A stretch of 64,000 nt of DNA, taken from Candidatus Kuenenia stuttgartensis (lineage in GTDB: Bacteria; Planctomycetota; Planctomycetia; Gemmatales; Gemmataceae). Under the pieces are notes generated by a model. That model saw nothing but the letters and a program-made list of their open reading frames with translations, did not search any database and was not told the origin of the DNA. The stretch is from contig CAMCLK010000012.1 of the NCBI GenBank assembly GCA_945875585.1, positions 1 through 64,000 on the forward strand. Direction: 5' to 3'. This document shows, piece by piece, positions 2,579 to 20,570 of the stretch. Numbering within the stretch: position 1 is the first letter of the stretch; each line of letters begins with the position of its first letter. The translations under genes and the position numbers were made by a program.

Positions 2579-3199
2579 ATGGCGGAAACGCTGCTTAAGA
2601 TTGAACCCAGGTCAACCACGGGTAGTCGCGCTGCGCGCCTTCTCCGGAAGTCGAACCTTGTCCCCGGTGTAATTTATTCCCATGGTGAAACTGCCGAGAA
2701 TATCGCAGTAGATCCGAAGGAAATCCAAGCAGTTGTTCACGCTGGCAAAAGCGTGATCGACATTGAAACCGGCGGAAAAAAAGAAAAAGCCATTGTACGT
2801 GAAGTTCAGTGGTGCCATTTGGGCCGCGAAATTCTTCACGTGGACCTTGGTAGGGTGAAGGCCGACGAGAAGGTTCGCCTCCATGTTCCTGTTCAAACCA
2901 AGGGAATGTCGCCTGGTGTGAACAGTGGGGGCGTGCTTGAGCTTCCGTTGCACAGCCTTGACGTTGAATGTTTGGTGACCAATGCGCCAACAGCAATCAT
3001 TGTGAATATTAGCGAACTCCTGATCGGATCAGCGGTTCACGTCCGGGATTTGATTCTTCCCGAAGGCGTGAAGGTTCTTAACGAAGCTGAACTTGTTGTA
3101 GTTCACGTTGTTGAACGTCGCGATGAACCAGCACCATCGGCTGTTTTGGCGGAACCTGAAGTTGTCACCAAGAAGAAGGTAGACGAATCGAAGGAGTAA
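2579..3199 (+). CDS. rplY: 50S ribosomal protein L25, long CTC type
   Basis: 206 residues in two domains: an N-terminal L25 beta-barrel (about 1-95; KIEPRSTTGSRAARLLRKS, then PGVIYSHGE) that binds 5S rRNA, and a C-terminal TL5/CTC domain (about 100-185; HVPVQTKGMSPGVNSGGVL). The tail is charged and Lys/Glu rich. The domain pair and length match the CTC form rather than the short E. coli L25. The next gene, pth, begins 27 bases later; rplY-pth is a very common pair in bacteria and supports both calls. Confidence 0.95.
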   Translation: MAETLLKIEPRSTTGSRAARLLRKSNLVPGVIYSHGETAENIAVDPKEIQAVVHAGKSVIDIETGGKKEKAIVREVQWCHLGREILHVDLGRVKADEKVRLHVPVQTKGMSPGVNSGGVLELPLHSLDVECLVTNAPTAIIVNISELLIGSAVHVRDLILPEGVKVLNEAELVVVHVVERRDEPAPSAVLAEPEVVTKKKVDESKE

Positions 3200-3226
3200 C
3201 CTGATTATCAGGGGTGGTTCGATTTC

Positions 3227-3811
3227 ATGCGCCTTGTTGTTGGTTTGGGAAATCCCGGACGGGAATATGATGGGACCCGCCACAACGTAGGATTCGATCT
3301 CATTGATCGGATTTCGCGAAGTCTGAATGCCAGCTCTTTTCAGGCTCGAATGGAAGGATTGATCGCTGAATCTGGATCAGGTGAAGGGAAAGTTCTGCTC
3401 TTAAAACCGCAGACATTCATGAACCTGAGCGGCCGTTGTGTTTCCAAGGTGCTTCAATTTTACAAAATTGACATTGGAATGATGATGGTCGTGTGTGATG
3501 ACAAGGATTTGCCTCTAGGAAAACTCAGAATTCGTGCATCAGGCAGTCACGGGGGAAATAACGGACTGCGCAGTATTCAGGACCATATTGGCCCCGACTA
3601 TTCCCGACTTAAAGTGGGAATAGGTGAGCCAAAAAGAGGTGATGCTGTAGCACACGTTCTAGGCAGGTTTTCTGGATCGGAAAGAACCGAAATGGAGAAA
3701 GCCATGGAGCTAGGGACCATGGCTGTTGAAACTTGGCTGGCAGAAGGGTTGACGGTTTGCATGAATCGTTTCAATGCAGGCCCAGACAAGGGATCTCCTG
3801 GCCGGAGTTAA
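3227..3811 (+). CDS. pth: Peptidyl-tRNA hydrolase
   Basis: 194 residues, normal length. Pth releases the peptide from peptidyl-tRNA dropped by stalled ribosomes. Visible motifs: GLGNPGREYDGTRHNVGF near the N-terminus, with the substrate-binding Asn and the catalytic His of RHNVGF; PQTFMNLSG; DDKDLPLGK with the conserved Asp; and GSHGGNNGLRS. All catalytic positions known in the family are present. It sits directly downstream of rplY and 43 bases upstream of rpsF, in the same direction, and is probably co-transcribed with them. Confidence 0.97.
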   Translation: MRLVVGLGNPGREYDGTRHNVGFDLIDRISRSLNASSFQARMEGLIAESGSGEGKVLLLKPQTFMNLSGRCVSKVLQFYKIDIGMMMVVCDDKDLPLGKLRIRASGSHGGNNGLRSIQDHIGPDYSRLKVGIGEPKRGDAVAHVLGRFSGSERTEMEKAMELGTMAVETWLAEGLTVCMNRFNAGPDKGSPGRS

Positions 3812-3854
3812 CGTCAAACGGAAACGAATGGTTTAGTTGAGGAGTGAGGGAGTT

Positions 3855-4289
3855 ATGTCGGAAAAGATTTACGAAGGCATGTTTCTTTTGGATACGGGCA
3901 AGATGACCGGTGACATGAATGTCACTGCAGATCAGCTGATTGGCCTGATCCAAAAGCATGGCGGTGAGGTTTATACCCACCGTGTATGGGATGATCGCAA
4001 GCTGGCTTATGCTGTTAAAAAGCAAAAAAAAGCAGTGTATTTCATGATGCACTTCAAGCTAAACGGTCCAACAATTGCAACTCTGGGCAAAGATTTGGAT
4101 TTGGTAGAATATGTGCTCCGTTACATGTTTTTAGCTATCGAGCCAAAGTTGGTGAATAACCTTCTTGAAATCGGTCGCGATCCTCAAGCGGTGGCCTTGC
4201 AAACAGTTCAAATTCCACCTGATGAAGATCTTTACGACAGCCCACCCGATCGCAATCGACGCCGGCGTCCAGCGGAATCAAGGGACTGA
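3855..4289 (+). CDS. rpsF: 30S ribosomal protein S6
   Basis: 144 residues from the preferred ATG at 3855, which follows a GGAGTGAGGG ribosome site; an in-frame ATG 18 bases earlier is less likely. The S6 fold is clear: YEGMFLLDTGKM at the start, then VYTHRVWDDRKLAYAVKKQKKAVYFMMHF, and an EYVLRYMFL segment. The C-terminus carries an Arg-rich extension (RNRRRRP) beyond the usual 95-100 residues. It is followed by ssb and rplI. In many bacteria rpsR (S18) lies between these; here it is absent from the cluster. Confidence 0.95.
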   Translation: MSEKIYEGMFLLDTGKMTGDMNVTADQLIGLIQKHGGEVYTHRVWDDRKLAYAVKKQKKAVYFMMHFKLNGPTIATLGKDLDLVEYVLRYMFLAIEPKLVNNLLEIGRDPQAVALQTVQIPPDEDLYDSPPDRNRRRRPAESRD

Positions 4290-4371
4290 ACACTTGTCCA
4301 ATCGGGCTAAGGCAGATAGTATCAATTTGGTTTCGTCCCCGTGGTTAGGCTGATCTGCTTGGAGCGTATCC

Positions 4372-4866
4372 ATGGCCAACCTCAATAAGGTCATTTTGAT
4401 TGGTCGCCTTACACGTGACGTTGAAGTGCGTGCGTTCAGTAATGGCGGCAAAGTTGCTAAGTTCGGTTATGCGGTTAACAACCGTGTTAAGCGAGACAAC
4501 AATTGGGTAGATGACCCTGTGTACCTGAATGTGGAAGCGTTCAATCGTGGGGAAAGCGGACTCGCAGATAGATGTGAACGTTTTCTACGCAAAGGTTCGC
4601 AATGTTACATTGAAGGGCACCTTGTGCTTGATCAATGGACAGCCCAGTCAGGCGAAAAGCGCAGTGCCATCAAGGTGGTAATGGAAAGACTTGAATTGTT
4701 GGATGGTCGTCCTGGGGGTGCTGAAGGATCTTCCCCACCGTCGGCGACGTCATCGCGACGCCCTTCTTTTGAAGGTGATCAGGGCGGCGGCTCTTTTCAG
4801 GGTGGTGATTACGGTTCCGATCTTGGTGGTGAACCAGACGGTGCCAAATCTGACCTCCCCTTTTAA
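4372..4866 (+). CDS. ssb: Single-stranded DNA-binding protein
   Basis: 164 residues. An OB-fold covers roughly residues 1-110, beginning NKVILIGRLTRDVEVR and including an NNRVKRDNNWVDDPVYLNVEAF stretch and a KGSQCYIEGHLVLDQW strand. A Gly/Ser-rich linker follows (about 115-155), and the protein ends in an acidic tip, KSDLPF, the interaction tail that recruits repair and replication proteins. SSB coats single-stranded DNA at forks. The gene lies between rpsF and rplI and shortly before dnaB, the classic arrangement. Confidence 0.96.
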   Translation: MANLNKVILIGRLTRDVEVRAFSNGGKVAKFGYAVNNRVKRDNNWVDDPVYLNVEAFNRGESGLADRCERFLRKGSQCYIEGHLVLDQWTAQSGEKRSAIKVVMERLELLDGRPGGAEGSSPPSATSSRRPSFEGDQGGGSFQGGDYGSDLGGEPDGAKSDLPF

Positions 4867-4899
4867 TTTTTTGATAGACGGGTTGCGGAGTGCGGTATC

Positions 4900-5406
4900 A
4901 TGAGTAAGCAGTCTCGCGGGCATCTTGTTAAAGGTCGTAATGGCAACATCAAGTTGGTGCTGACCGAAGATGTTCTCCATTTGGGGCAGCAAGGCGAAGT
5001 TGTTGAAGTAAGGCCTGGCTACGCTCGGAACTATCTTGTTCCACGTGGTTTGGGAACTATTCCAACCGAACATAACTTGCGACTTCTTGATCGGTACAAG
5101 GTACGTGTGCTTCAAGCACGCGAAGCCCGTATCGCTGATATCAAGGCTCTTGCTGATCAGATCTCAAAGTTCTCTGGCATCACGATCGAATCGCGTGCCA
5201 ATGCTGAAAACCAGCTCTATGGGTCAGTTGGATCTGCTGAAATTGCCGCCGGCTTGAAAGCCAAAGGCTATCCGATCGAGGCAGAAATGGTGGTTCTTGA
5301 AGGAGCCATCCGTGAAACTGGTCTCTTCGGTGTTAAATTGAATCTTGGTTTCAGTATCGAAACTGAAGTCAAGGTGGCAGTTGTTTCTCTGGCTGATAAA
5401 CGCTGA
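4900..5406 (+). CDS. rplI: 50S ribosomal protein L9
   Basis: 168 residues. The N-terminal rRNA-binding domain is plain (KLVLTEDVLHLGQQGEVVEV, then GYARNYLVPRGL), followed by the long connecting helix (about 65-95) and the C-terminal domain with NQLYGSVGSAEIA and a closing KVAVV strand. The first dozen residues (MSKQSRGHLVKG) extend the N-terminus relative to L9 proteins that begin at MKVILL; a later start is not available with a good ribosome site. It precedes dnaB by 14 bases. Confidence 0.95.
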   Translation: MSKQSRGHLVKGRNGNIKLVLTEDVLHLGQQGEVVEVRPGYARNYLVPRGLGTIPTEHNLRLLDRYKVRVLQAREARIADIKALADQISKFSGITIESRANAENQLYGSVGSAEIAAGLKAKGYPIEAEMVVLEGAIRETGLFGVKLNLGFSIETEVKVAVVSLADKR

Positions 5407-5420
5407 CCAATGGGTGACCC

Positions 5421-6782
5421 ATGGCCAAGGATGGCAATGGTGTCGCGAATAGCAACAGGCCCCTGCCCCGCAGTCATGATGCGGAGCAGTCAGTGCTTGG
5501 CAGCATGCTTCGCGACAATCAGATTATTTCGGATGTCATAGTCGAACTGCGCGCGGAGCATCTTTTTTCTGATGCCCATCAGAGAATTTATAAGGCTATT
5601 CTGAAGCTTTTCGATACGGGGCGCCCGGTAGATCTCGTCACTCTTGCTGAAGAATTAGACTTAGAAAAAAATCTCGATGATATTGGTGGCGCTGCGTATC
5701 TCCTGGAAATTTGGGACCGCACTCCAACCGCCGCTAACGCCAAATTCTATGCGAAAATAGTTCGAGACCGTGCCACTATTCGTTCGGTAATTCACACATC
5801 CACAGAAGTTCTTGAAAGTGCCTACGGTGATTCGCAAGCCGCTGATGAGTTGATGCACGATGCGGTAGGTAAATTTCTCGCACTTGCAGACTTGGGCGTT
5901 CGTGGTGGTGTCGTCCCCTTGCAGGAAGCACTTCACGAAGCATATGACCGGATCGATGCCAGGAGTGCTGGCGACCTCTCGAGCATGAGCGGGTTGAGTA
6001 CTGGTTATCCGGACTTAGATGAGATCACAGCCGGATTTCAAGCTTCCGAAATGATTATCATCGCGGCGCGCCCGTCCGTGGGCAAAACAGCATTCGCATT
6101 GAATATCATCAGGAATATCATCACGCGCGAAAAAGCCCCGGTTTTGTTTTGCAGTCTTGAGCAGTCGAAAATTGAAATTGCCGAGCGATTGATGTGCAGT
6201 CATGGACGAGTGGACAGTCAAAAGCTACGTAAAGGTGCTCTTAATTCTGAAGAAATGGACAGATTGGTTCAGGCCGGTGGTGATCTGGTAACCGGGAATT
6301 TGTTCATTGATGATTCCCCGGCACAAAGCATGTTGCGAATTGCGTCCACAGCGCGCCGACTTTATCAGCGTTCGGGTTTGCGTCTTGTGGTGATTGATTA
6401 CCTGCAACTTATTGATCCTGAGAGCCGTCGTGATCCCCGTCAGGAACAGGTGGCGCAAATCAGTAGACGACTCAAAGGCTTGGCTCGAGAATTGAAAATT
6501 CCAGTCATTGCCTTGGCTCAGGTAAATCGTGCCAGTGAAGATCGGCAGGATCATCGTCCTCGACTATCAGATCTTCGGGAATCTGGCAGCATTGAACAAG
6601 ACGCGGATACCGTAATGCTGCTTCACCGGCCTGAAAGGTTTGAACCAGGCATGAATGAAGGATACATGGAAGTTATTATTGGCAAACAGCGTAATGGTCC
6701 AACCGGTCAAATTGCATTAAGTTATGTCAAGCAATTCATGAGATTTGAATCGACTACCATCGGTACACCATTTGATATTTAA
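5421..6782 (+). CDS. dnaB: Replicative DNA helicase DnaB
   Basis: 453 residues, full length. The N-terminal domain (about 15-120) begins PHDAEQSVLG-like (SHDAEQSVLGSML) and contains the conserved FSDAHQRIYKAI segment. The RecA-like C-terminal domain has the Walker A AARPSVGKTAF near residue 215, a Walker B VVIDYLQL near 325, and the arginine-finger region. DnaB is the hexameric helicase that unwinds DNA at the fork. No intein is present. It follows rplI and precedes ispF by 11 bases. Confidence 0.97.
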   Translation: MAKDGNGVANSNRPLPRSHDAEQSVLGSMLRDNQIISDVIVELRAEHLFSDAHQRIYKAILKLFDTGRPVDLVTLAEELDLEKNLDDIGGAAYLLEIWDRTPTAANAKFYAKIVRDRATIRSVIHTSTEVLESAYGDSQAADELMHDAVGKFLALADLGVRGGVVPLQEALHEAYDRIDARSAGDLSSMSGLSTGYPDLDEITAGFQASEMIIIAARPSVGKTAFALNIIRNIITREKAPVLFCSLEQSKIEIAERLMCSHGRVDSQKLRKGALNSEEMDRLVQAGGDLVTGNLFIDDSPAQSMLRIASTARRLYQRSGLRLVVIDYLQLIDPESRRDPRQEQVAQISRRLKGLARELKIPVIALAQVNRASEDRQDHRPRLSDLRESGSIEQDADTVMLLHRPERFEPGMNEGYMEVIIGKQRNGPTGQIALSYVKQFMRFESTTIGTPFDI

Positions 6783-6793
6783 GGGGAAATCCG

Positions 6794-7318
6794 ATGCATG
6801 ATCAGGTGGTTCCCAATACTGATAAGTATCGAGTTGGTATTGGCCACGACACTCATCGGCTGGTATCTGGCCGCGATCTCATATTGGGTGGTGTGAGAAT
6901 CGACCATGAAGTAGGTCTTGCTGGTCATAGCGATGCCGATATCGTTTTGCATGCGTTGACGGATGCAATACTGGGAGCGGCATCGCTTGGGGACATTGGT
7001 GATCATTTTCCAGACACGGATCCCGCCCATGCTGGCAGGGATAGTCGGGAATTCCTCCAAGAAGCGGTCAGGTTAGTATCAGCGCATTCATTTTCTGTTG
7101 TGAACGCGGATCTGATTATTCATGCCCAGCAACCTCGATTGAGTTCATATAAAACCGCCATTCGTGAAGTGATTGCTTCATTGTTGAATGTGGGAATTGA
7201 TAGGGTTAATGTTAAAGCCAAAACAGGCGAGCATGTCGGTCCAATTGGAAGGTGCGAGGCTATGTCGTGCCACGCGGTAGTGCTTCTGAGGTACAATTGT
7301 TCTGAGGACGAGATATGA
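6794..7318 (+). CDS. ispF: 2-C-methyl-D-erythritol 2,4-cyclodiphosphate synthase
   Basis: 174 residues. IspF forms the cyclic diphosphate of methylerythritol in the MEP isoprenoid pathway. The family motifs are GIGHDTHRL (residues 16-24, zinc-binding Asp and His), GHSDADIVLHALTDAILGA (third zinc His and phosphate contacts), GDIGDHFPDTDP, and a late VNVKAKTGEHVGPIGR. About 14 extra residues precede the usual start; MHDQVV is the ATG that fits the ribosome site AAGGGGA. The stop overlaps the cysS start by four bases. In this window it is the only MEP gene. Confidence 0.97.
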   Translation: MHDQVVPNTDKYRVGIGHDTHRLVSGRDLILGGVRIDHEVGLAGHSDADIVLHALTDAILGAASLGDIGDHFPDTDPAHAGRDSREFLQEAVRLVSAHSFSVVNADLIIHAQQPRLSSYKTAIREVIASLLNVGIDRVNVKAKTGEHVGPIGRCEAMSCHAVVLLRYNCSEDEI

Positions 7319-8766
7319 CTATCCGTGTATACAGCACATTGACACGTCGCAAGGAAGACCTCGTTCCTGTTGTGGCTGGCAAAATAAGCATGTATGTGTG
7401 CGGTCCAACAGTATACAAGCCAAGCCATGTGGGCCACATGGTTGGCCCGGTAATTTTTGACACAATCAAGAGGTTTCTTGTTCGATCTGGTTATGATGTC
7501 AAGTTTGTCATCAACATCACTGATATCGATGACAAATTAATCGTTGAATCCGCGCGCCGTGGCACATCTGTCCCTGCGTTGGCTGCCGAGGTGACGGCGG
7601 ATTACATGACATGTCTTGATTGCCTTGATGTGAATAGCGTTGACTCGTTTCCCCGCGCGACTGATCATATTCCAGAAATCCTCGCCATGATTTCCGGTCT
7701 GATTGACAAGGGGCATGCCTACGCTTCTGATGGTGATGTTTATTTTGATGTTGGTAGCGATCCTGACTATGGCAAGTTATGTAATCGTGATCCCGATCAG
7801 TTGGAAGCTGGCGCCAGAATTGAAATATCGAGTCGCAAGCGGAATCCGGGCGATTTCGCCTTGTGGAAAGGCGCGAAGCCAAGTGAGCCATTTTGGCCAT
7901 CCCCTTGGGGCAACGGTCGTCCTGGCTGGCATATTGAATGTTCTGCCATGAGCATGAAGCTTCTTGGCGAATCTATTGATATTCATGGTGGTGGCTTGGA
8001 TTTGCAGTTTCCTCACCATGAAAATGAACTTGCCCAGTCTGAATCATTTACTGGAAAACCTTTTGCCAAACTTTGGTTGCATAATGGTTTGATGAAAACC
8101 GGTGACCGGAAAATGTCCAAGAGTGAAGGTAATGAAATTGTTGTCGGGTTGCTTTTGAAAAAACACCGAGCTGAAACACTTCGTTGCCTTCTGCTTTCTT
8201 CGCATTATCGTAGTCCGATTGAGTATAGTGAAGATCGCTTACTGGAAGTTCAGCGCGGATTGGATGGATTTCATCGATTCTTCCAGCGCTTTGAACGAAT
8301 TGTTGGCGAATCATTTTATGGTTTACCAACTGGTCAATTTGAACTGGCTGATTCACATTTTGCCGCTTATGGCACTCGTTTTGTTGAACACATGGCGGAT
8401 GATTTCAACACCGGGGCAGCTTTGGGTGTTTTGCACGATCTACTAGGGGCGCTCAACAGATTTGTCGAAGTTTCACGCTTGGATCACCCTGCTCCTTCCG
8501 CGGTCGCAGTTTCTGATTTCAAGCGAAACACCCTTGTTTTGCGCGATCTTTCCAACATTCTTGGCCTTTTTCAAAGACCTATTTCTGTTGATACTGTTTC
8601 TCAAGATGATTTAGCCGGGCCTTTGGTTGAATTCCTGATTGAACTCCGTAACGATGCTCGGAAGAATAAGGACTTTGCTATGGCTGACCGTATCCGCAAG
8701 AAACTTGCGGATTTGAATGTCACTATCGAGGATCGTCCCGGAAGTAGTGGTTGGCGCCGTGGTTGA
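7315..8766 (+). CDS. cysS: Cysteinyl-tRNA synthetase
   Basis: 483 residues, the usual length. A class I synthetase: the HIGH motif appears as HVGHM in PTVYKPSHVGHMVG, with the zinc-binding Cys of MYVCGPTVY just before it; HIECSAM and GGGLDLQFPHHENE supply further zinc and cysteine contacts; KMSKSEGN is the KMSKS loop near residue 265. The C-terminal anticodon-binding helix bundle follows. It charges tRNA-Cys. The start overlaps ispF by four bases, and the 3' end overlaps or abuts ruvC. Confidence 0.97.
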   Translation: MTIRVYSTLTRRKEDLVPVVAGKISMYVCGPTVYKPSHVGHMVGPVIFDTIKRFLVRSGYDVKFVINITDIDDKLIVESARRGTSVPALAAEVTADYMTCLDCLDVNSVDSFPRATDHIPEILAMISGLIDKGHAYASDGDVYFDVGSDPDYGKLCNRDPDQLEAGARIEISSRKRNPGDFALWKGAKPSEPFWPSPWGNGRPGWHIECSAMSMKLLGESIDIHGGGLDLQFPHHENELAQSESFTGKPFAKLWLHNGLMKTGDRKMSKSEGNEIVVGLLLKKHRAETLRCLLLSSHYRSPIEYSEDRLLEVQRGLDGFHRFFQRFERIVGESFYGLPTGQFELADSHFAAYGTRFVEHMADDFNTGAALGVLHDLLGALNRFVEVSRLDHPAPSAVAVSDFKRNTLVLRDLSNILGLFQRPISVDTVSQDDLAGPLVEFLIELRNDARKNKDFAMADRIRKKLADLNVTIEDRPGSSGWRRG

Positions 8767-9268
8767 TGCTGAATTGCGGTTAATCGGGATTGATCCAGGT
8801 CTCAGGATTACTGGTTATGCTGTTTTGGTTTCAAGGGGGCGACAAGCCAGGGTTCTTGAGGCGGGAGTAATCAAAACCACAGCGAAATTATCGATGGGTG
8901 ATCGCCTTGTTGAATTACGAGATGGAATTGAGGAGGTTTTATCTCAATATCAACCCACCAGTATGGCTGTTGAACAGTTGTTTTCGCATTACAAGCACCC
9001 CCGAACGGCAATCGCCATGGGGCATGCCCGTGGAGTTCTTCTGGAAGCTGCAGCGCGGCGTGGAATCACTATTGAGTCAATTACTCCCAAACAAGCAAAG
9101 AAAACAATAACCGGATCCGGTGCGGCTGATAAGATTCAAATGCAGCGTGCCATAGTCTTTGAACTGGCACTTGATCGGATTCCTGAACCTGCTGACGTTG
9201 CTGATGCCATGGCCATTGCACTTTGTCTGCATCATCGGCGATGGACGACTCCTGAGGAAGTTCAATGA
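8759..9268 (+). CDS. ruvC: Holliday junction endonuclease RuvC
   Basis: RuvC resolves Holliday junctions pushed by RuvAB. The RNase H-like core starts IGIDPGLRITGYAV, with the first catalytic Asp in GIDPG, then VEQLFSHYKHPRTA with the catalytic Glu, KQAKKTITGSGAADK, and DVADAMAIALCHH-like ending with the last catalytic Asp. Start choice is uncertain: an ATG at 8717 would overlap cysS by 50 bases and add 14 residues before this GTG; a TTG at 8774 would give the shortest N-terminus, closest to family length. I list the GTG at 8759, which overlaps cysS by eight bases. Confidence 0.93.
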   Translation: MVDAELRLIGIDPGLRITGYAVLVSRGRQARVLEAGVIKTTAKLSMGDRLVELRDGIEEVLSQYQPTSMAVEQLFSHYKHPRTAIAMGHARGVLLEAAARRGITIESITPKQAKKTITGSGAADKIQMQRAIVFELALDRIPEPADVADAMAIALCLHHRRWTTPEEVQ

Positions 9269-9888
9269 TTACCCGGATGATTGGTATTGTCAATCGTGTG
9301 CTTGATGAAGAAATAAGGCTGCAAGTTGGTCCCTTTGAATATCAGGTTCTTATTCCCGAGGTGACCCGGAGATCTCTTCAGGAAAAGGTTGGTTTGGAAG
9401 TAGTTTTACATATTGTGGAATATTTGGAGGGGAACCAATCAGGCAGCAGGATGGTTCCCAGACGTATTGGTTTTCTAACGGAAGACGACCTCGAATTTTT
9501 TGAGCTATTTTGTACGGTTGACAAGATCGGTCCCAAAAAAGCCCTTAAAGCAATGGCTTGTCCCGTTCGGGATATTGCTAGGGCTATTGGTTCGCGTGAT
9601 GCCGCCTGGTTGACAACGCTCAATGGAGTTGGAAAGGCCGGCGCTGATACCATAATCGCCCAATTGCACCGAAAAGTGGCCCGATTTTCTGTTGTTGGAA
9701 ATCTGCAATCTGGAGCAGGTTCTGGCGCTTCCGTTTCTGGCGCTCTATTTGAAGAAGCCTACCTCGGTATGATTGCTTTGGGACTGTCTGGAATCGAGGC
9801 AAGAGCGCGACTCGATGCTGTCACTGCGCAAGGAACCCAGTTTTCTGATGTGGCGTCCCTCATTCAGGCTGCTTTTCAGCGTAATTGA
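9265..9888 (+). CDS. ruvA: Holliday junction branch migration protein RuvA
   Basis: 207 residues. RuvA forms the tetramer that holds the four-way junction. The N-terminal OB-fold (MIGIVNRVLDEEIRLQVGPFEYQV) is followed by the helix-hairpin-helix region, with FCTVDKIGPKKALKAM and LTTLNGVGKAGADTII as the two HhH motifs, and by a C-terminal three-helix domain (LGMIALGLSGIEARARLDAV) that contacts RuvB. The start is at ATG 9265 (overlap ATGA with ruvC) or the internal ATG at MIGIV. Co-translated with ruvC; ruvB follows 17 bases later. Confidence 0.95.
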   Translation: MITRMIGIVNRVLDEEIRLQVGPFEYQVLIPEVTRRSLQEKVGLEVVLHIVEYLEGNQSGSRMVPRRIGFLTEDDLEFFELFCTVDKIGPKKALKAMACPVRDIARAIGSRDAAWLTTLNGVGKAGADTIIAQLHRKVARFSVVGNLQSGAGSGASVSGALFEEAYLGMIALGLSGIEARARLDAVTAQGTQFSDVASLIQAAFQRN

Positions 9889-9905
9889 TCGTTTGGGAGA
9901 TTTAA

Positions 9906-10955
9906 ATGGCACGGGAAGCTGTGGTTGGTGGAGGAGAAATTGAGAATGAACTTCGCCACGATGCGGCTCTTCGCCCGCGTCGATTTTCAGATGTAATCGG
10001 CCAAAAACATGTCATTCAACGATTGACGATTGCGGTGAACGCGTGCCGCAAACTAGGTGAATCGATGCCTCATATTCTGTTCGATGGGCCACCCGGGTTG
10101 GGGAAGACAACGTTTGCTAATGTCCTTCCAGGCGAAATGGGCGGTGCGCTTCAAATCACTTCAGGCCCCGCGTTGACTCGTCCTGCTGATTTATTACCTT
10201 TTCTGACCAATGCTGAAGAAGGTGGTTTTCTGTTTATTGATGAGATCCACAGACTTCCTAGGATCGTTGAAGAATTCCTGTATCCCGCCATGGAAGATTT
10301 CAGGGTAGATATCGTTTTGGGCGAGGGCCTTGGTGCCCGGACTGTTTCGATGCGATTGAAACGATTCACTTTGATTGGCGCAACTACCAGAAGTGGAATG
10401 CTAAGCAGTCCCATGCGTGACCGATTCAAAATGCATGAGCATTTGGATTACTACGATGAGAATGATTTGGCAACAATCTTGCGTGCCAATGCAATTAAAT
10501 TGAAAACTCCATTGGAAGATTCTGCTGCACTTGAACTGGCAAGAAGAAGCCGGGGTACTCCGCGTATTGCAATTTCTCGGCTTTTTTGGGCAAGGCAGTT
10601 TTCAGCTAGTGAACGCGACGGCACAATTACTCTTGCCGTTGCTCGTGAAGCTTTGCATCTCGCGGAGGTTGACCATGCTGGTTTGGATAAACAGGATCGT
10701 CGGTATTTAGAGACTTTGACAGGTGTTTTTCAGGGTGGGCCGGCGGGCGTTGAAGCTATTGCTGCAACCATGAATTTGCCTTCCGATACGCTTTCTGATG
10801 AGGTTGAACCATATTTGTTGCGTGAGCAGTTTGTTCTGCGAACGGCTCGTGGGCGTATGGCAACTTCAAAAGCCTGGTCGCATATCGGGCGTATTCCTCC
10901 AGTTACGGAAAACCCAAATATTGGTCCCGATCTTTTCAGCAGTGCTGGAATTTGA
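9906..10955 (+). CDS. ruvB: Holliday junction branch migration helicase RuvB
   Basis: 349 residues. An AAA+ motor that drives branch migration on RuvA. Motifs in order: LRPRRFSDVIGQ at the start, Walker A DGPPGLGKTTFA (about 59-70), Walker B FLFIDEIHRL (about 108-117), sensor 1 IGATTRSGML, the arginine finger in SPMRDRF, and the C-terminal winged helix with ATSKAW. It completes a ruvC-ruvA-ruvB set, all in one direction. The gene ends three bases before the stop of the convergent moaA. Confidence 0.97.
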   Translation: MAREAVVGGGEIENELRHDAALRPRRFSDVIGQKHVIQRLTIAVNACRKLGESMPHILFDGPPGLGKTTFANVLPGEMGGALQITSGPALTRPADLLPFLTNAEEGGFLFIDEIHRLPRIVEEFLYPAMEDFRVDIVLGEGLGARTVSMRLKRFTLIGATTRSGMLSSPMRDRFKMHEHLDYYDENDLATILRANAIKLKTPLEDSAALELARRSRGTPRIAISRLFWARQFSASERDGTITLAVAREALHLAEVDHAGLDKQDRRYLETLTGVFQGGPAGVEAIAATMNLPSDTLSDEVEPYLLREQFVLRTARGRMATSKAWSHIGRIPPVTENPNIGPDLFSSAGI

Positions 10956-17861: not shown

Positions 17862-18821
17862 ATGCGTTGGCGGGTAGGAATCGACGAAGCGGGGTATGGC
17901 CCTACATTGGGTCCACTGGTCATGGCGCTGACTGCTACTGGCTGGCCAGATGGGACTGATTTGCTGGAAGATGGGTGGTCAAGCCTTTCCCAGATCATTC
18001 AACCCGTAGCGGTCGGACGTTCCCGAACCAAGGATTCACGCCTCATTGTTGGAGACTCGAAAAAAATCAAAGTTTTAAGCGGTGGTCATCAACGATTGGG
18101 AGCACCATGGCGAACGCTGTTTCATACAGACCTGCCTGCTGAATTGTCAGCAGATGACTTTATTTCAAAGGTGGATTGCTTAGGGCGCGATGAACTGCTT
18201 GCTGAACCGTGGTGGCGCTGTGGCCATCCTGTTGTCTTGGTTGCCAATTGTGGGGCTAGCCAGCTAGGCAATAATTCGCAAATGAAACCACTCTTTCGAG
18301 CCATAATCCTTGTTGTTGCAGTGGAGCATTTTAATGCGATCTGCCGTCAATCAGGTTCGAAAGGAGCTGTGACAGGAAATGGGTGGATTTCCTTGTTGTC
18401 TCGTTTTTTGGGCACGGTGGCTGATGGCGATGTTGTGGAAGTGCTTGCTGATAAACAGGGGGGGCGGGATCGTTATGGATCCATGCTTCTGGAGGCCACA
18501 TCAGGTGCAGGTTGGGTTATTCCAGAGCGAGAAGGTGCAGCCGAAAGTATTTATCGCTGTACTGGTCTTCCTTACGATTTGCGTTTGAAGGTAACGCCAC
18601 GGGCAGAGGCATCTTGTCCAAATGTTGCCTTGGCATCTATGATTGCGAAGCATATGCGAGATACGACTATGGAAGTATTTCATTCTTTTTGGGCAGCATT
18701 AGTGCCCGGCTTGCAACCCACGGCAGGCTATCCAGGTGACGCGATTAGGTATATTGAAGCTATCCAGCCAGTCGCTGAACGTTTGGGGATCGCCATGAAC
18801 CGTCTGCGGAGGGAGCGTTAA
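17862..18821 (+). CDS. Divergent RNase HII-like protein
   Basis: 319 residues, well over the roughly 200 of ordinary RNase HII. It begins VGIDEAGYGPTLGPLV, matching the RNase HII active-site strand with Asp8 and Glu9. Later pieces align in order: VGDSKKI near residue 63 (cf. DSKKL), an Asp in LADKQGGRDRYG near 196, and SMIAKHMRDTTME near 257 (cf. ASIIAKVTRD). So the acidic set appears present, but spacing is stretched and the sequence between is unlike the standard enzyme. It may cleave RNA in hybrids or be a repurposed relative. Its 3' end overlaps the convergent pseudokinase gene by 62 bases. Confidence 0.65.
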   Translation: MRWRVGIDEAGYGPTLGPLVMALTATGWPDGTDLLEDGWSSLSQIIQPVAVGRSRTKDSRLIVGDSKKIKVLSGGHQRLGAPWRTLFHTDLPAELSADDFISKVDCLGRDELLAEPWWRCGHPVVLVANCGASQLGNNSQMKPLFRAIILVVAVEHFNAICRQSGSKGAVTGNGWISLLSRFLGTVADGDVVEVLADKQGGRDRYGSMLLEATSGAGWVIPEREGAAESIYRCTGLPYDLRLKVTPRAEASCPNVALASMIAKHMRDTTMEVFHSFWAALVPGLQPTAGYPGDAIRYIEAIQPVAERLGIAMNRLRRER

Positions 18822-19674
18822 TGGGTTCTCGCACTTGGATCCAACCTAGATAAGTAGCGCCCTGCTGTGCCAAAGCGTGCTGCCACCGTTCTACCTGTGC
18901 GTCTTCTCCTTCAGTAGCGGCAATGAAGACCCCGTCAGCGAATCCTAGCAATGTTGCAACTTCTGTCGACGGACCATTTTGTCGGGCGCCGGCAAGAATC
19001 AATTCGTGATCACGGCGAACCCTACGAAGTAAGCCAAGATAAGTTCGCGCCTGAAGTGACATGGTCTGGGTGCTTGCAGCATGACCACGTGGGAGCATGT
19101 TTACGTATTTGCTACCACCTTCATGAACAATATCAGGCAATTCTGCATGACCAGCTAGGTAGTCTGTTACTCCAGGTCCGATTGGCAAACCTGCAGGCAT
19201 CGGCAGAGCACCTGGGATTATCAGGGTGCCACACCCTTCTTTGCTGGAACTTCTTGCAGTATGCAGCAGCAGTCGACCTAGTACAGAGTCCTGAACAGTG
19301 TTGGTGGCCAAAATTACCACACACGCAGAACCATGTAATCGGCGGGAAACCATTTCAAGAACCGCGGGTACAACGGTTGCTTCAGGAGAATCATCCAATT
19401 CACTGGGCCAATTCCAAGATGGTTTTGTTTTGATTGGTTGTAATGGAGGTTTATCGAGTGGGGAAGCTTTTTTTGATTGTCGACGAAGTTCGGCCACATC
19501 CGGAGACGAATCGATGGCAATTCCGCCACCAACTTCGATGAATGGAAGGAATTCCGTTGGGGCTGCATCGGGTGGGGGGCTTGTGTGCCCAGAAGGAAGT
19601 TTATCTGTGGGCAATACAGGAGCGCGTCCGACTGGTTCGGGGGAGGATTGCAGTCGTTGCCAAAGTCGCGCCAT
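18760..19674 (-). CDS. BY-kinase/CpsD-like protein without a P-loop
   Basis: 304 residues. After a proline-rich N-terminus (1-95) comes a domain resembling bacterial tyrosine kinases of the Wzc/CapB/CpsD type: a strand ACVVILATNTV (117-126), a second strand TLIIPGALPMP (150-160) where DADLRRP would lie, then GLPIGPGVTDYLAG (162-175) matching the 'GL--GL-D-L-G' segment, and VNMLPRGHAA (191-200) matching the 'L--LPAG' segment. The Walker A (GxxGxGKS/T) is absent: the loop reads NTVQDSVLG. No tyrosine cluster at the C-terminus. It follows an ExeA-like ATPase by 35 bases on the same strand. Likely a scaffold or partner rather than a kinase; inference. Confidence 0.5.
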   Translation of the reverse strand: MARLWQRLQSSPEPVGRAPVLPTDKLPSGHTSPPPDAAPTEFLPFIEVGGGIAIDSSPDVAELRRQSKKASPLDKPPLQPIKTKPSWNWPSELDDSPEATVVPAVLEMVSRRLHGSACVVILATNTVQDSVLGRLLLHTARSSSKEGCGTLIIPGALPMPAGLPIGPGVTDYLAGHAELPDIVHEGGSKYVNMLPRGHAASTQTMSLQARTYLGLLRRVRRDHELILAGARQNGPSTEVATLLGFADGVFIAATEGEDAQVERWQHALAQQGATYLGWIQVREPINAPSADGSWRSPNVQRLAG

Positions 19675-19709
19675 GATATTGCAGTGCTGGACTGCTCCTG
19701 CTTGGTTCC

Positions 19710-20570
19710 TCAGGCAGATCGGCTATGCGCCATGGGAACGGTTTCCTGAGTTTCTGTTGCCAAATTCTCGGCGTTGTTCGTGTTTAGGGTGAGCATTTCC
19801 CGAGCTGAAAGGAATGTTTCGAGGTCCAAACTGTCCATTCCTGAGGATCTTGCCATTCGCCAAGACGCCCGCAATCCCTGCATCAGCCGACCGGGGTTGC
19901 CTTCACCCCATTCAATAAGTGCTTCTAGTGTTTCAATATCCAGAAGCCGGTCTGGATTGCCACCGGCTCTGCGAATCTGATGTCTGATGAAATCAGCAGA
20001 TTCGGTGGGATCCATCGATGCCAAGGTGTAAATTCCACCGATTCTATGTTTGAACCAAGCTGGATTCTGATCCATGAGGTGTTTTGTCAGAGCTTGGGTA
20101 CCTAAAAGTACCAGACAAACCGCAGGACCCCGTGCGCCTATTAAGCTGCACAAACCTTCTAAATCGGCTAGTGACTTATCACTAAGGGTTTGGCCGCCGT
20201 CGACAATGATCAGGCAGTGCCGCCTTTTGTCGTATCCCATCAGCACGTGTTGTTCCAAGCATGCCCGAACATTTAAGGTGCTTGGAGATATTTCGATATC
20301 CAACTCTACAGCTAAATCGCGTAGGAATGTATTTGCATCTTCATACCGTGTTTGAGGCATGAAAACCGCATCAAATTGTTCGCCTACCAGTTCAAGTAAC
20401 TTGGTGGCGAGGAAAGATTTTCCTGCTCCATTATCCCCAATAACAAGTTGGCATGGTTCGAGGTCTTCCAGACCAGCTTTGAGCATACCCAGTACATGCT
20501 CATGCGCCTGCGACGGATAATACGCCGATGGGTTGATGCTTACACCAAAGTGAAGGCCGGTAGCGGCCAT
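19710..20570 (-). CDS. ExeA-like AAA ATPase with altered Walker B
   Basis: 286 residues. Walker A GDNGAGKS at 45-52; the Walker B region reads CLIIVDGGQTL (119-129), where ExeA-type ATPases have VLLIDEAQNL, so the catalytic Glu after Asp124 is replaced by Gly. A sensor-like VLLGT (153-157) and a later ALIEWGEGNPGRL sensor-2-like segment fit the family. There is no membrane segment. ExeA/GspA-like ATPases act in secretion assembly or as regulators in exopolysaccharide (exosortase-linked) loci. Here it is in a minus-strand set with fabZ and trmB upstream and the P-loop-less BY-kinase-like protein downstream. It probably binds ATP; hydrolysis is uncertain. Confidence 0.65.
   Translation of the reverse strand: MAATGLHFGVSINPSAYYPSQAHEHVLGMLKAGLEDLEPCQLVIGDNGAGKSFLATKLLELVGEQFDAVFMPQTRYEDANTFLRDLAVELDIEISPSTLNVRACLEQHVLMGYDKRRHCLIIVDGGQTLSDKSLADLEGLCSLIGARGPAVCLVLLGTQALTKHLMDQNPAWFKHRIGGIYTLASMDPTESADFIRHQIRRAGGNPDRLLDIETLEALIEWGEGNPGRLMQGLRASWRMARSSGMDSLDLETFLSAREMLTLNTNNAENLATETQETVPMAHSRSA

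Follow-up and report, generated by a model that had tools for sequence, protein, structure and literature searches.

The XrtA (PEP-CTERM) system provides the closest described counterpart of the pair analysed here, the same two protein families lying side by side: the XrtA-associated tyrosine autokinase (TIGR03018) and the XrtA/PEP-CTERM ATPase (TIGR03015). On a plasmid of Nitratidesulfovibrio (N. vulgaris) the genes were found in the order Wza, XrtA chain-length protein (PCP), XrtA kinase, XrtA ATPase, in agreement with an initial annotation of the present DNA, which had described exosortase-type loci as combining an active kinase with an ExeA-like ATPase. The order in Rhodobacterales was ATPase, PCP, CpsD. 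GspA/GspB (ExeA/ExeB) and MshM/MshN are comparable in that an ExeA-family ATPase has a dedicated partner; the MshN-like protein beside an MshM-like ATPase (names given from position beside mshL only) starts MSLLNEMLKDL. EcpK of Myxococcus xanthus and HfsB of Caulobacter are BY pseudokinases with no kinase motifs and no Tyr tail that scaffold PCP-2 proteins in polysaccharide pathways, according to the accessible part of the source (PMC12004946), in which an ExeA-like partner of EcpK is not described. No paper joining ExeA and a BY-kinase was found in a literature search.

The locus lies in a window of 64,000 nucleotides, the whole stretch of DNA analysed, from a Gemmatales genome (Table 1). Both open reading frames were intact, with the ATPase gene upstream and the pseudokinase gene downstream. 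At its 3' end (18760-18821) the pseudokinase gene shares 62 nt with the end of a gene running towards it (17862-18821, by eye RNase HII-like).

Table 1. Features of the pseudokinase/ATPase locus, in window coordinates
Feature	Position	Strand	Remark
BY-kinase-fold pseudokinase, 304 aa	18760..19674	-	without Walker A, A' or B motif; without Tyr tail
ExeA/XrtA-type AAA_22 ATPase, 286 aa	19710..20570	-	Walker A GDNGAGKS intact; Walker B IIVDGGQ without catalytic Glu
N-terminal helix MARLWQRLQ (pseudokinase residues 1-9)	19648..19674	-	diverged form of family motif M[GSA]RxxxxL
PFIEVG linear motif (pseudokinase residues 44-49)	19528..19545	-	in predicted disordered N-terminal tail
Lost Walker A position of pseudokinase (LATNTVQDSVLG)	19276..19311	-	
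Altered ATPase Walker B (IIVDGGQ)	20189..20209	-	
Intergenic gap, 35 nt, ATPase to pseudokinase	19675..19709	-	

Single-sequence searches with the 304-aa protein of the window gave no significant family match, and a match to BLUF was rejected as chance. A profile of its family matched the solved BY-kinase BceF best (1.2e-34) and also matched VpsO, CapB, Wzc and Etk. AlphaFold2 modelled the window protein with a pLDDT of 74 (most core blocks 77-93) and a well-conserved family member with a pLDDT of 80 (most of the core >90). Foldseek searches with the window model returned the BY-kinases CapA2B2, Etk and Wzc at E values of ~1e-9 to 1e-8, and structures of CapAB, Wzc and Etk likewise came top with the well-conserved member. 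On the evidence of profile and models the protein has a BY-kinase fold; the kinase reading, originally made by eye, was right because family profile and Foldseek both favour BY-kinases. The elements 'GL--GL-D-L-G' (GLPIGPGVTDYLAG) and 'LP-G' (MLPRG), also picked out by eye, are both loosely present.

In the window protein the Walker A position reads NTVQDSVLG, the Walker A' position IIPGAL and the Walker B position ILAGAR. The Walker A Lys is missing from all 75 pseudokinases whose sequence spans the motif, 50 of which have Thr in its place (typical form GTTTVLLNLA); canonical kinases with a readable motif all carry GK[ST]. Walker A' has Asp in 58 relatives and Glu in 16 more (Pro in the window), and the Walker B Asp is kept by 62 (Gly in the window). 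The last 40 residues hold 0-2 Tyr in all 78 pseudokinases, hence there is no C-terminal Tyr cluster. With neither the Walker A Lys nor a Tyr tail, the kinase-like partner is predicted from its motifs to be catalytically inactive. The lost P-loop and missing tail first noted in the window are therefore features of the family (Lys 0/75), and degeneracy of the kinase site is order-wide, but it mostly takes the GTTT form and not the complete erosion of the window member, which is an extreme case within the module.

The N-terminal tail of the pseudokinase is predicted to be mostly unstructured and holds two short motifs that are conserved: M[GSA]RxxxxL, with which it begins, and PFIEVG, in which the Glu is invariant (78/78). 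A typical Gemmatales start is MGRMLDALKR. M[GSA]RxxxxL was matched by 64/78 relatives against 17/659 neighbour genes, an enrichment that is partly circular because the regular expression was tuned on the pseudokinase family. The window helix narrowly fails this expression, and the AlphaFold2 model places a helix at residues 2-9 with low confidence. The N-terminus of the N. vulgaris XrtA kinase (MSRIEEALARAAREREA) has a helix, MSRIEEAL, similar to that of the pseudokinase, and the N-terminal helix of the MshN-like protein is similar too. The helix is read as a putative docking element for ExeA-type ATPases.

The window ATPase matched AAA_22 (Pfam, 4e-13) and TIGR03015 (1.3e-19; 70.7 bits, cut-off 324.5), and the two motifs that the annotation had picked out in it, GDNGAGKS and VDGGQ, are both present. 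TIGR03015 was the closest family for 26/26 ATPases and TIGR03018 for 26/28 pseudokinases, a family kinase member scoring 65 bits, below the curated TIGR03018 cut-off of 231. The Walker A P-loop is intact in all 78 ATPases, and the Walker B Glu is kept in 73. It is replaced by Gly in the window and in genome G026, by Gln in G016 and G100 and by Asp in G042; a partial ATPase gene in G105 also lacks it (Asp). The window, G016, G026, G100 and G105 have trmB beside the pair in common, and the loss is thus chiefly a feature of the window's group. Walker B loss is a minority trait (5/78), mostly of the window's lineage. The proposal that both key sites are degenerate thus describes the window but does not define the system. 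The window ATPase ends in RSA (19713-19721), and a C-terminal tripeptide of the [RK][ST]A type was seen in about two-thirds of 78 relatives.

The kinase-like protein was counted from the match list in 86 of 102 Gemmatales genomes, and 78 distinct loci were extracted, in every one of which the ATPase gene is the immediate upstream neighbour in the same orientation. The close spacing of the two minus-strand genes, 35 bases apart, had been the starting observation, and the annotation had asked whether the pair is conserved in other planctomycetes; within Gemmatales both adjacency and order recur. Among the class-wide matches listed, the high-scoring short form occurs only in Gemmatales, those elsewhere in the class being kinase domains that almost always belong to ORFs of at least 700 aa. 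In the tree, a branch with SH-aLRT support of 99 separates all pseudokinases from the canonical BY-kinases. Values of dN/dS for both genes were ~0.05-0.27 between pairs of relatives and were not raised in the fully degenerate genus g15; they are approximate because several pairs approach saturation at synonymous sites. The pair is a single-copy two-gene module conserved across the order Gemmatales and under purifying selection in the relatives, among which the conservation of the proteins is not in doubt.

No polysaccharide genes were recognised anywhere in the window's 64 kb (gene list by eye, ten genes domain-scanned), as the annotation had stated. On another contig the window genome encodes a separate canonical Wzc-type kinase, which has the GDGKS motif and a Tyr-rich tail and lies next to a Wza gene. 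The 78 loci yielded only lineage-specific conserved neighbours and none order-wide, in a survey whose gene calling recovered both core genes in 59/78 loci, and the pair sits in differing housekeeping contexts across the order. A block with gene names assigned by eye (L25-pth-S6-ssb-L9-dnaB-ispF-cysS-ruvC-A-B, 2579-10955) lies ~10 kb from the pair in the window and directly adjoins it in genera g20 and g29; its nearness in several genera suggests vertical inheritance of the locus. In 18 loci (e.g. L161:7730-7996) the pair is followed immediately downstream by a convergent gene for an ~88-aa protein (QQKIIKRYYxN).

A clade-specific Gemmatales PCP profile was built because PF02706 (Wzz) misses G012 and G033. 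In profile searches, nine genomes of three genera (G021, G106, G107, G108, G110, G111, G030, G093, G095) contained the pair and gave no match to a canonical BY-kinase, a PCP or an exosortase; absence from a draft genome proves nothing, although two of the nine, G021 and G030, are 99-100% complete, and a divergent PCP below threshold is possible in the nine. A short Poly_export-family match turned up in each of the 24 Gemmatales genomes examined, including those with no PCP or BY-kinase (e.g. G000:C49:28728-28937, inside L234), and was rejected as a linked partner as it had no consistent context. A role in anti-phage defence was also rejected, PADLOC giving no match for the window proteins.

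Set against the XrtA pair, the Gemmatales kinase is without the Walker A Lys and the Tyr tail, the gene order is reversed with the ATPase first, and no PCP, Wza or exosortase locus adjoins. The unit looks like the Wza/PCP-kinase-ATPase set minus the PCP; it is related to the XrtA kinase and ATPase, and we infer descent from such a pair. It differs from GspAB and MshMN in that the partner has a BY-kinase fold and not a GspB domain and that no secretin or pilus genes were recognised in linkage with the pair. The stand-alone fold without motifs or Tyr tail is shared with EcpK and HfsB (PMC12004946), but the Gemmatales protein is linked to an ExeA-like ATPase and is retained in genomes that gave no PCP match. 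The idea of an undescribed scaffold system consequently stands in one respect and falls in another: the pair is conserved and undescribed, but BY pseudokinase scaffolds as such are known.

We consider it likely that a catalytically dead BY-kinase has been kept as the non-enzymatic adaptor of an ExeA-type ATPase, the two descending from an XrtA-like pair. A motor with a non-enzymatic adaptor is the probable mode of working because both genes are selected even where no sugar-export machinery was found. The N-terminal amphipathic helix of the pseudokinase, and perhaps also PFIEVG in the disordered tail, would be where the ATPase binds; the BY-kinase fold would hold an envelope client; and the ATPase, by binding and hydrolysing ATP, would assemble or remodel that client. 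In the window lineage the ATPase is expected to go on binding ATP with little hydrolysis, and so to act as a slow switch or a static clamp. The physical interaction, the helix docking, the client and the envelope role are all putative, and no conserved neighbour across the loci names a client. A bolder form, offered tentatively and with slightly more doubt than belief, is that the XrtA-type pair became in Gemmatales an envelope-assembly machine free of phosphorylation, PCP and exosortase, that one lineage dispenses with hydrolysis, and that the helix is a general ExeA docking tag. As a real, order-wide and selected module the pair is firmly identified; its mechanism we infer. BY pseudokinases were named only recently, and until now solely as sugar-export helpers. 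Being order-wide, ATPase-tied and kept in genomes that yielded none of the usual export partners, the Gemmatales pseudokinase is a natural test of the BY-kinase fold minus phosphorylation, and the pair suggests a shared way for ExeA-type ATPases to recognise their partners.

The pair might instead assemble a secretin or type IV filament machine in the manner of GspAB or MshMN, the pseudokinase replacing GspB or MshN. Membership of the ATPase in the ExeA/MshM family and the resemblance of the helix to that of the MshN-like protein are consistent with this, as is a divergent TPR gene (product starting MSRTLTL), adjoining the ATPase gene in 31 loci, which recalls the TPR-like repeats of the MshN-like protein. 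Against it, the conserved neighbours of the pair included no recognisable secretin or pilus gene and a peptidoglycan-binding domain was absent from the Pfam matches of both proteins, and we regard this reading as unlikely. The TPR protein itself (~250-270 aa, C-terminal motif LPFVRV; L158:9897-10703 and 30 other loci; also L125:13308-14093) is a possible third component of the pair; its gene is 5 kb from the ATPase gene in Zavarzinella.

A role of the EcpK/HfsB type, in which the pseudokinase would bind the cytoplasmic tail of a kinase-less PCP-2 (Wzz-like) protein and guide assembly of exopolysaccharide export with the ATPase as an accessory, appears quite improbable. Proteins with the BY fold and neither motifs nor tail do act in this way (EcpK and HfsB; PMC12004946), the Rhodobacterales gene order ties ATPase, PCP and CpsD together, and canonical PCP-kinase fusions occur in many Gemmatales including the window genome. 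However, no PCP lies beside the pair, the Gemmatales PCP profile was unmatched in the nine pair-bearing genomes, the window genome gave a single PCP match, which belongs to a fusion with an active-type kinase, and the accessible part of PMC12004946 describes no ExeA-like protein with EcpK.

Decay in a single lineage, which would make the window pair a degenerating remnant without function, is a little harder still to credit. All kinase-like Walker motifs and the ATPase Glu are gone in the window, whose protein has a long branch in the tree (1.62 changes per column) on which relaxed constraint is possible, the dN/dS figures coming from relatives, none of which is close to the window. Two congeners, G001 and G002 (each 81% complete), have neither the pair nor the adjoining trmB orthologue, through either a shared deletion or missing contigs. 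Yet both window ORFs are intact, and G016, G100 and G099, whose motifs are equally and fully degenerate, are under strong purifying selection (dN/dS ~0.05-0.21). The pair as a whole is not single-genome decay, which the annotation had named as its own alternative, and the kinase Lys is lost order-wide.

Action as an exosortase/PEP-CTERM accessory far from its locus accords with the best-scoring families, the XrtA-associated kinase and ATPase, and with an exosortase in 86 of the 102 order genomes; it is already weakened, and now very improbable, as 13 genomes have the pseudokinase without a detectable exosortase, including the near-complete G021, G030 and G066. A MinD/ParA-type positioning protein is hardly credible, since the family profile does match MinD (5e-19) but BY-kinases rank above it in both profile and fold searches and there is no deviant Walker A KGGxGK.

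Elsewhere in the window, genes were found for an angiotensin-converting-enzyme-like peptidase (PF01401, 44919-46805) and a deoxyhypusine synthase family protein (PF01916, 47103-48251), both in a bacterium.
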